A DNA stretch of 60,675 nt from an uncultured Oscillospiraceae bacterium (GTDB taxonomy: Bacteria; Bacillota; Clostridia; Oscillospirales; Oscillospiraceae), in the NCBI GenBank assembly GCA_951801655.1, contig CATONV010000006.1:1-60675 (forward strand). Direction: 5' to 3'. The notes under the pieces were generated by a model, which saw only the letters and a list, made by a program, of their open reading frames with translations, did no database searches and had not been told where the DNA came from. The position numbers and the translations under genes are program-made. Below, in pieces: positions 47,734-48,975 of this stretch (the stretch's first letter is position 1; each line of letters opens with the position of its first letter).

Positions 47734-47952
47734 ATGTCAAATTTTGCTCTGCGCATGAAAGAGCTGCGAAAAGAGAAAAAACTAAAACAGCAGGAATTGG
47801 CAGACGAGTTCTCTGTTAAGCTGCGAACCTATCAGGGATACGAATATGGGGAGTCCTATCCAGAGGTCGCAAAGCTATTAGCCATCGCCGACTACTTCGA
47901 CGTCAGCCTGGATTACCTGATGGGCCTCTCTGATGTAAGAGAAAAGAGGTAA
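47734..47952 (+). CDS. XRE-family helix-turn-helix regulator
   Basis: A 72-residue Cro/CI-type protein, SNFALRMKELRKEKKLKQQEL at the start and YFDVSLDYLMGLSDVREKR at the end, closely like the regulator at 25354-25566 in layout. ggaggc lies 5-7 bp before the ATG. AT content is above the neighbouring translation genes. It is divergent from a small unknown gene and likely binds the paired sites between them. The palindromic element begins at the base after its stop. Confidence 0.85.
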   Translation: MSNFALRMKELRKEKKLKQQELADEFSVKLRTYQGYEYGESYPEVAKLLAIADYFDVSLDYLMGLSDVREKR

Positions 47953-48179
47953 TCCCCCGTCCCGCCCGCGGCGAAAGCCTCCTTTTGAAAGGAGGTGGCA
48001 CGGCCCGAAGGGCCGTGTCGGAGGATTGCATTTTGGCGAAGCCAAAATATGCGAAGCAAACAAGAGTTTGCAAACCTGCTTTATTGCATACGTTTCGCTG
48101 CGCGAAACACAATCCTCAGTCAGCCTGCGGCTGACAGCCCCTTTCAAAAGGGGCCTTGCCCGCTGCGGCGGGGACGGGA
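47953..48179. repeat. Multi-hairpin palindromic element of the second repeat family
   Basis: Homologous inverted arms begin CCCGTCCCGCC and end in GAGGATTG (left) or CAATCCTC (right). Each arm has its own hairpins: left CCTCCTTTTGAAAGGAGG and ACGGCCCGAAGGGCCGT; right AGTCAGCCTGCGGCTGACA and CCCCTTTTGAAAGGGG (minus strand). The centre adds ATTTTGGCGAAGCCAAAAT, GCAAACAAGAGTTTGC and GTTTCGCTGCGCGAAAC. It ends 22 bp before the DUF559 start codon. Confidence 0.88.
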
Positions 48180-48201
48180 GCATGTGAGGAGTAGTGCGCT
48201 G

Positions 48202-48573
48202 ATGGATTTTTTGCCTCGAAACAAAAAAGAAAGGCCGCATTCCACGCGGCTGCGCAACGAACCCACTTCTGCGGAGAAGCGGCTGTGGTATGGTTTTTTG
48301 CGCACCGCATCCCCAAGATGGAATCGTCAGCGGATTATTGACAGCTATATTGTAGACTTTTTTTGCCTGAAAGCGAAGCTGGTTGTGGAGTTGGACGGGA
48401 GTCAGCACTACGATGAAAATGGTTTGATCGAATATGATAAAATCAGGACAGACTATTTGGAAGCGTTGGAACTGAAGGTTTTGAGGTTTACCAATTCGGA
48501 AGTTGAAAAAAATTTCTCTAAGGTCTGCGAAAAAATACAGCTTGAAACAGATCAGAGGTTAAAGACAATCTGA
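48202..48573 (+). CDS. DUF559 protein, Vsr/PD-(D/E)xK-like nuclease
   Basis: A 123-residue single-domain protein: FLPRNKKERPHSTRLRNEPTSAEKRLW (core at 3-29), then YIVDFFCLKAKLVVELDGSQHY with Asp52, Glu63, Asp65 and the QH pair 68-69, the putative metal-binding set, and LKVLRFTN at 91-98. DUF559 is related to very-short-patch-repair endonucleases; biological role unknown. gagga is 12 bp upstream of the ATG, inside the end of the repeat region. It is more AT-rich than rbfA. Close linkage to the palindromic element suggests a functional pair. Confidence 0.9.
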   Translation: MDFLPRNKKERPHSTRLRNEPTSAEKRLWYGFLRTASPRWNRQRIIDSYIVDFFCLKAKLVVELDGSQHYDENGLIEYDKIRTDYLEALELKVLRFTNSEVEKNFSKVCEKIQLETDQRLKTI

Positions 48574-48585
48574 AGGAGAAACAAC

Positions 48586-48975
48586 ATGGCAAGCAATCGA
48601 ATCGGACGCATCAACGAGGAGGTGCAGCGGGAGCTGGCCGCCCTCATTCCCACGGTGAAGGACCCCCGGGTGTCGGGGATGATCTCGGTGACGGCGGTGG
48701 ACGTGACCCCGGATTTGAAATTCGCCAAGGTCTATATCTCGGTGCTGGACAAAGACGACAGCGACCAGGTCCTCAAGGGGCTGAAGTCGGCGGCGGGGTA
48801 TCTCCGCCGGGAGCTGGGGCGGTCTCTCAACCTGCGCCACACCCCGGAGATCACCTTCTTCCAGGATGACGCCATGGCTAAGGGAGCCAAAATTCTGGAG
48901 ATGCTCCGCAATCCGGAGGTGGTAAAACCCGCCAATCCGGCCAACGAGAACATTATTTTGGACGAGGAGGACTGA
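48586..48975 (+). CDS. rbfA: Ribosome-binding factor A
   Basis: A 129-residue KH-fold protein of 30S maturation. NRIGRINEEVQRELAALI, KDPRVSGMISVTAVDVTPDLKFAKVYIS (core DPRVSGMISVTAV) and LRRELGRSLNLRHTPEITF are the family motifs. ggagaa precedes the ATG. The gene is now 12 bp after the DUF559 gene instead of infB; it probably depends on read-through or on a promoter in the insert. nrnA follows after 4 bp. Confidence 0.96.
   Translation: MASNRIGRINEEVQRELAALIPTVKDPRVSGMISVTAVDVTPDLKFAKVYISVLDKDDSDQVLKGLKSAAGYLRRELGRSLNLRHTPEITFFQDDAMAKGAKILEMLRNPEVVKPANPANENIILDEED

Follow-up and report, generated by a model that had tools for sequence, protein, structure and literature searches.

The window analysed here, a stretch of 60,675 nucleotides, carries a dense cluster of hairpins followed by the gene of a single-domain nuclease of the DUF559 family, and the question raised by this locus is whether the two form a partnership. 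The preliminary description of the sequence mentioned DUF559 genes beside similar hairpins in other gut Firmicutes and proposed, by analogy with RAYT transposases and REP sequences, that the nuclease could spread or maintain the repeats. The DUF559 family is common but has no agreed role, and intergenic hairpin repeats of bacteria often have no known mover.

The geometry first described for the locus is upheld, with coordinates, hairpin scan, fold and Pfam in agreement. The element at 47953-48179 is a 227-bp quasi-palindrome that holds seven separate perfect hairpins (stem of at least 6, loop of 3-8). Its outer arms are CCCGTCCC at 47956 and GGGACGGGA at 48171-48179, and its inner arms are GAGGATTG at 48021 and CAATCCTC at 48110. 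When folded as single-stranded DNA, the region 47930-48200 reaches -78.2 kcal/mol vs -44.86 (sd 3.7) in 200 shuffles (z = -9.01). The features of the locus are the following:

47734..47952, + strand: XRE-family regulator gene (HTH_3, RstR-like; Pfam) that ends with its stop codon immediately before the element and is not part of it; context.
47953..48179, no strand: ORF-less hairpin element composed of end B, centre and inverted end A, with arms CCCGTCCC/GGGACGGGA (fold, repeat search, hairpin scan).
47974..48028, + strand: end B, with hairpin 1 (47978-47995), hairpin 2 (47999-48017) and the purine arm GAGGATTG (48021-48028).
48030..48108, no strand: centre with three hairpins, 48030-48048, 48056-48071 and 48092-48108 (hairpin scan).
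48110..48157, - strand: inverted end A, with CAATCCTC (48110-48117), hairpin 2' (48119-48135) and hairpin 1' (48137-48154).
48202..48573, + strand: DUF559 gene coding a 123 aa single-domain nuclease of Vsr/PD-(D/E)xK type with conserved D52, E63, D65 and H69 (Pfam, alignment, profile search).
48586..48975, + strand: rbfA, the downstream border of the insert; context.

The element and the adjoining DUF559 gene, whose ATG (48202) starts 22 bp past the end of the element, are found between infB and rbfA immediately past the XRE stop codon, and form an insert of ~620 bp between the XRE gene and rbfA. Inspection by eye of the infB-rbfA gap in eight relatives and in nine with gaps <260 bp (of 29) revealed neither element nor DUF559; in genome G027 (locus L118) an XRE gene lies directly 5' of rbfA. 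Note that the DUF559 gene of the window is atypical (see below) in that it lies outside the hairpin element, beside one end, rather than being enclosed by it. At Rfam gathering thresholds the site of the element has no match, and its identification as a known structured RNA was rejected on that ground. The sole Rfam match in the window is a large bacterial SRP RNA gene at 1370-1636.

The product of 48202-48573 matches PF04480 in Pfam (E 2.1e-29, 102 bits), and all 26 sequences of an alignment carry D52, E63, D65 and H69. Among solved chains the closest by profile are 3hrl, an "endonuclease-like protein" (E 2.9e-23), and 3r3p, a "mobile intron protein" (E 0.0016), the latter found by profile search with alignment A3 and missed by single-sequence search. 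The available excerpts of three papers give the family some background. In Caulobacter the DUF559-domain protein VsrA is required for the DNA damage response of methyltransferase mutants; it is described as an endonuclease on genetic evidence and discussed in terms of methylation-linked mismatch repair (excerpt of PMC12907096). EDxHD/Vsr-like domains are treated as homing endonucleases (excerpt of PMC12350094), and in Faecalibacterium a DUF559 gene adjoins mam (excerpt of PMC8836110). Assignment to a known anti-phage defence system was put aside as unlikely, the PADLOC match being weak (mREase_II, E 4.6e-4, 17.6 bits).

The hairpin element is not confined to this locus. The source genome is a draft of 2.5 Mb in 150 contigs, 89% complete, in which a search with the element returned 67 rows on both strands, corresponding by hand count to about 20 distinct full or partial copies. 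It has a single DUF559 match, so that just one copy of the element adjoins a DUF559 gene. In 19 other copies the extrapolated element measures 163-185 bp. The centre spans 70-84 bp in 16 of them; in one it was read as 48 bp, and two gave no reading. Two of these ORF-less copies, L012 and L014, are absent at the matching sites of relatives. At the L014 site the joined flanks are contiguous in G128, G045 and G087, while G039 has extra sequence that is by eye of a different kind; at the L012 site they are contiguous in G087, G045, G039 and G027, with a short unmatched stretch in G128. No target-site duplication was readable at these sites, the intergenic sequence of the relatives being too diverged. 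Six of the about 20 copies (that of the window and L004, L005, L008, L017 and L020) come after the stop codon of a small XRE-like ORF, in one case 69 bp further on; the Pfam check of these ORFs covered the XRE gene of the window only.

The relation between the gene family and the repeats was assessed in 150 genomes of the same family, 45 of which have a PF04480 match. Among 29 fetched loci, hairpins lie beside many DUF559 genes and frequently on both sides. The flanks were then compared by a motif-free test that takes the best local match, inverted or direct, of the 250 nt preceding the core with the 250 nt following it; a score of at least 20 counts as matched, and the shuffled controls run with the family and genome-scan samples remain <16. 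Inverted arms alone are found at 13/29 DUF559 loci of the family vs 0/30 rbfA loci, and matched flanks of either kind at 17/28. In a genome-scan sample of 80 named loci, the highest-ranking among 575 or more relatives, 44 of the 76 testable DUF559 loci have matched flanks vs 3/231 other ORFs of the same loci (4/80 scanned and 1/29 family loci were dropped for short flanks). Matched flanks occur at 2/83 control ORFs with at least 80 free bases on each side, and none of 15 Y1-transposase loci has matched arms or A/B ends. The enrichment of repeats beside DUF559 genes, on which the partnership had been made to depend from the outset, is thus present against every one of these controls. In viral contigs (L230-L274; 45 loci fetched, 41 given) 12 of 36 testable DUF559 loci have matched flanks, and in L157 an acyltransferase ORF (PF01553, 4149-4796) lies between strongly matching arms (score 155).

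The occurrence of hairpin repeats next to DUF559 in gut Firmicutes is confirmed and reaches other phyla. In Cyanobacteriota 84/117 genomes have a DUF559 match, and matched flanks are found for 10/14 stand-alone DUF559 genes and for 13/16 DUF559 within open frames >250 aa vs 0/20 controls. In Pseudomonadota the match is found in 46/150 genomes, and the corresponding values are 16/23, 2/5 and 0/9, so that the pooled control ORFs of the two samples give 0/29. The loci tested from these draws are the 30 (Cyanobacteriota) and 28 (Pseudomonadota) best-scoring among those listed, without L353 (a half match), L278 and the other loci of L275-L294. Examples of arms are TCCCCCCCTTATTAAGGGGGGTTAGGGGGGAT in a cyanobacterium and CCCTCTCCC..GGGAGAGGGTTGGGGTGAGGG in a pseudomonadote. 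The hairpin adjoining a plasmid-borne DUF559 gene of Azospirillum is found again on further replicons of this genus. The queried locus is occupied in each of the seven Azospirillum records that cover it. The hairpin adjoining a Sinorhizobium DUF559 gene, which we take to resemble RIME, makes up the majority of the rows listed for 117 matching records, which are largely rhizobial. The linkage of DUF559 with hairpin repeats is genuine and occurs widely, and judged against these controls it is specific.

These data bear directly on one alternative, namely that DUF559 and its neighbours simply have the hairpins as terminators or regulatory structures. Elements of the source genome often lie within ~15 bp of a stop codon and their hairpins could end transcription. 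Against this, the arms on the two sides of the gene are homologous to each other, the same ends are found elsewhere as dispersed B-A pairs devoid of a gene, and a shared layout, two hairpins plus a purine arm, is seen repeatedly. With matched arms in just 2/83 ORFs that have free flanks, plain terminators were rejected and this explanation is considered highly implausible.

The organization of the typical unit was deduced from 109 loci. Each half-element follows the plan hp1, T or TGG, hp2 and purine arm; 226 half-elements, 190 of them unique, were recognized in 87/109 loci. Two end types are distinguished, end A with GGGAGCTG(T/G)C..GACTGAGGG and end B with GGGAGGTGGC..GACGGAGGG. They are found on any side at 64 of the 109 loci and on both sides at 19, and in 12 of those 19 the order in gene orientation is B, DUF559, inverted A. 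The density of the end patterns is 1.53 per kb within 250 nt of DUF559 and 0.02-0.05 beyond 1 kb, a contrast that is inflated because the A/B patterns were drawn up after inspecting DUF559 flanks (the T2 hairpin used below was likewise picked from flanks). ORF-less B-A pairs with a short centre are present in several of 12 loci examined, e.g. in G001, G097 and G140, and in G001 the hp1 sequences of ORF-less and gene-bearing copies are identical or one or two bases apart. Gene-bearing and gene-less copies thus have inverted ends in common. The consensus fold of aligned half-elements is poor (4 pairs). In the 190 unique half-elements the reversed hp1 3' arm fits the purine arm better than the unreversed one in 111, worse in 23 and equally well in 56; since the purine arm mirrors the 3' arm of hp1, the ends could form an intramolecular triplex, and this could be the shape that is recognized. 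Past the A end, L043, L044, L050, L056, L057 and L393 show a AACAGTTAA-type motif and after it a hairpin resembling a terminator.

The preliminary description proposed that repeats would be rarer in genomes lacking DUF559, and this holds as a tendency with clear exceptions. In the 150 family genomes, taken as one genome per species and uncorrected for phylogeny, the end-A pattern is present in 31/45 DUF559-positive vs 26/105 negative genomes, and in 15/24 vs 10/54 of those at least 95% complete; the T2 hairpin, a second pattern, occurs at least once in 16/45 vs 16/105. Both counts take in the repeats at DUF559 itself and higher thresholds were used for this reason. At least five end-A matches are found in 18/45 DUF559-positive vs 12/105 negative genomes, and at least three T2 hairpins in 10/45 vs 2/105; the rank test for end A gives p 3.7e-8. 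The exceptions lie on both sides. G049, 99% complete and without a DUF559 match, carries 75 T2 hairpins and 37 end-A matches, which may be relics or may have been moved by something else, and many end-A matches without a DUF559 match are also found in G097 (58), G122, G134 and G092. Conversely, 14/45 DUF559 genomes have no end-A match; among them is the source genome, with elements that deviate from the pattern.

Such genomes are one argument for regarding DUF559 as a passenger, a cargo or hitch-hiker in hairpin elements moved by other means such as recombination, an HUH or other transposase, or replication slippage. It is in line with this view that the majority of repeats lie away from any DUF559 and that genomes like G049 and G097 are rich in repeats without a match to the gene. 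Direct-repeat and tandem arrangements are also seen around DUF559 genes and suggest that ordinary recombination takes part too, and the agreement between repeat type and nuclease type described below could be linkage. A passenger, on the other hand, does not readily account for the recurrence of one gene family, and not of other ORFs, between matched arms in samples of three phyla, nor for the rise of repeat copy number with DUF559 presence. Y1_Tnp is the usual mover of REPs. Its comparison by presence is non-significant (27/58 vs 30/92, p 0.12), with a one-sided rank test on counts giving p 0.02; the DUF559 effect on repeat counts persists in both Y1 strata; and the source genome has zero Y1_Tnp (PF01797) matches. 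On the last finding and the non-significant comparison by presence a RAYT-driven system was rejected, and the passenger explanation as a whole is judged unlikely, though it keeps some weight.

The inheritance of the units was followed through the repeat type, with five hp1 types assigned by pattern. Of the 29 family loci, 27 entered the analysis; 21 could be assigned a type, and for 19 the host sequence was sufficient. When placed on the DUF559 tree, the repeat type of these 19 genomes requires 7 changes, fewer than in any of 300 shuffles (mean 12.0); on the host tree from infB+rbfA it requires 11, and 97 of 300 shuffles (mean 11.9) give a value as low. In a clostridial set, where 71/98 loci could be typed and 11 other loci were left out, 10 type changes are required vs a mean of 40.0 (0/300). 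As far as these trees go, the unit is inherited whole and independently of the host, and the agreement could stem from linkage alone. In trans the agreement of repeat and nuclease type is partial. T2-typed units are found in G005, G064, G066 and G140; T2 hairpins listed away from the gene number three in G005 and six in G066, both of those in G064 are the gene's own flanks, G140 has two places outside the listing, and T2 hairpins are found also in T1-typed genomes.

Whole-unit duplication is clear in one of eight genomes compared, G001, the other seven giving shorter matches. G001 has two DUF559 copies at separate places that have 528 bp in common at 81% identity. The homology is sharply bordered by the outer hairpin of end B and on the other side extends beyond end A to a GTAAAACAGTTAA-plus-terminator segment. 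The hairpins of the two copies are nearly identical while the ORF is more diverged, and one of the two DUF559 copies has a stop codon. Hairpins kept alike beside a diverged ORF are as expected from homogenising repair and bring in a further explanation, according to which a Vsr-like nuclease processes extruded hairpins or their mismatches, protects the repeats or the host and moves nothing. The fold kinship to Vsr and to Caulobacter VsrA, a predicted mismatch-repair endonuclease (excerpt of PMC12907096), is in keeping with such a role. A repair gene, however, would not have to be enclosed by the arms; moreover, the tree that the unit follows is its own and not that of the host, and its distribution is patchy (45/150 genomes). 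Maintenance without movement is regarded as distinctly improbable.

The presence of DUF559 inside matching repeats across distant bacteria suggests a class of mobile hairpin elements with an enzyme not previously linked to one. The reading towards which we lean is that the unit is a hairpin-ended mobile element whose sole gene codes a Vsr-fold nuclease with putative action on the hairpins. In its working it would resemble RAYT/REP systems or homing endonucleases without being a member of either class. DUF559 would be the resident gene of a two-ended element, with the typical unit running from end B through DUF559 to inverted end A. The ORF-less B-A copies, 47953-48179 among them, would be its non-autonomous derivatives. 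The nuclease would nick or cut the structured ends or the ORF-less repeat, after which repair or template switching would copy the element in a RAYT-like manner; alternatively, the gene would be copied between the arms of an empty repeat in a homing-like manner. A broader proposal is put forward tentatively: DUF559 proteins might serve as mobility nucleases for a class of hairpin-ended elements that is widespread and probably ancient, acting on the two distinct ends B and A, spreading their own gene homing- or RAYT-like and supplying the enzyme so far lacking for many orphan palindromic repeats in bacteria without a known transposase.

Several known systems share part of this organization. The REP/REPIN and RAYT (TnpA-REP) "REPtrons" also feature dispersed palindromic intergenic repeats with many gene-less copies, a dedicated single-strand or hairpin-type nuclease gene within inverted pairs of the same repeat, and agreement of nuclease type with repeat type. 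The partner here is, however, of DUF559/Vsr type (PF04480) and theirs an HUH Y1 transposase, and the DUF559 repeats are longer, with the hp1-hp2-purine-arm plan, two end types and, as far as read, no GTAG/CGTC tag basis. RIMEs of rhizobia and CGTC REPs, compared here by description, are dispersed palindromic repeats as well. According to the excerpts available, RIMEs are annotated intergenic repeats of unknown function (PMC2573895), and GTAG REPs come with RAYTs while CGTC REPs are seemingly without a dedicated transposase (PMC3733652); the ends of the DUF559 element differ from CGTC REPs in carrying no recognizable CGTC tag. MITEs and small insertion sequences likewise exist in gene-bearing and gene-less versions with common inverted ends and produce empty sites such as those of L012 and L014, but the DUF559 units were read without a DDE, HUH, tyrosine or serine transposase.

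The enzyme itself points to other relatives. EDxHD/Vsr-type homing endonucleases ("fractured genes") include 3r3p, the nearest solved mobility enzyme by profile search, and with them, too, a nuclease gene occurs in "filled" and "empty" versions of one type of site; the host sequence of DUF559 is, in contrast, a dispersed hairpin repeat between genes, and by eye no intron, intein or split gene surrounds DUF559 in the loci read. VsrA and the Vsr mismatch endonucleases have in common with the present enzyme the DUF559 domain of VsrA and its genetic endonuclease evidence, and differ in that VsrA is discussed there as methylation-linked mismatch repair and repeats are no subject of the excerpt (PMC12907096). 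Among the open-licence papers listed for DUF559 or for Vsr-like endonucleases, none deals with an association with hairpin repeats. Through this association DUF559 and hairpin repeats are brought together in Bacillota, Cyanobacteriota and Pseudomonadota as sampled, and at single loci of other phyla, and every repeat type is predicted to have its own enzyme-substrate pair. Should the nuclease indeed move the repeats, the units would be a class of small mobile elements that operate on a repair- or homing-type nuclease and no transposase; if it moves nothing, the place of DUF559 between matching hairpins, far above that of other tested genes, needs another cause.

Two loci display secondary rearrangements of the unit. 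In Sinorhizobium meliloti Ak57 a deletion of ~350 bp runs from within DUF559, whose end is lost, into the hairpin, which is partly removed; this comparison was rejected as an empty site. In Azospirillum argentinense (L361, about 1470-2632) an IS110-family element is inserted in the hairpin upstream of DUF559.
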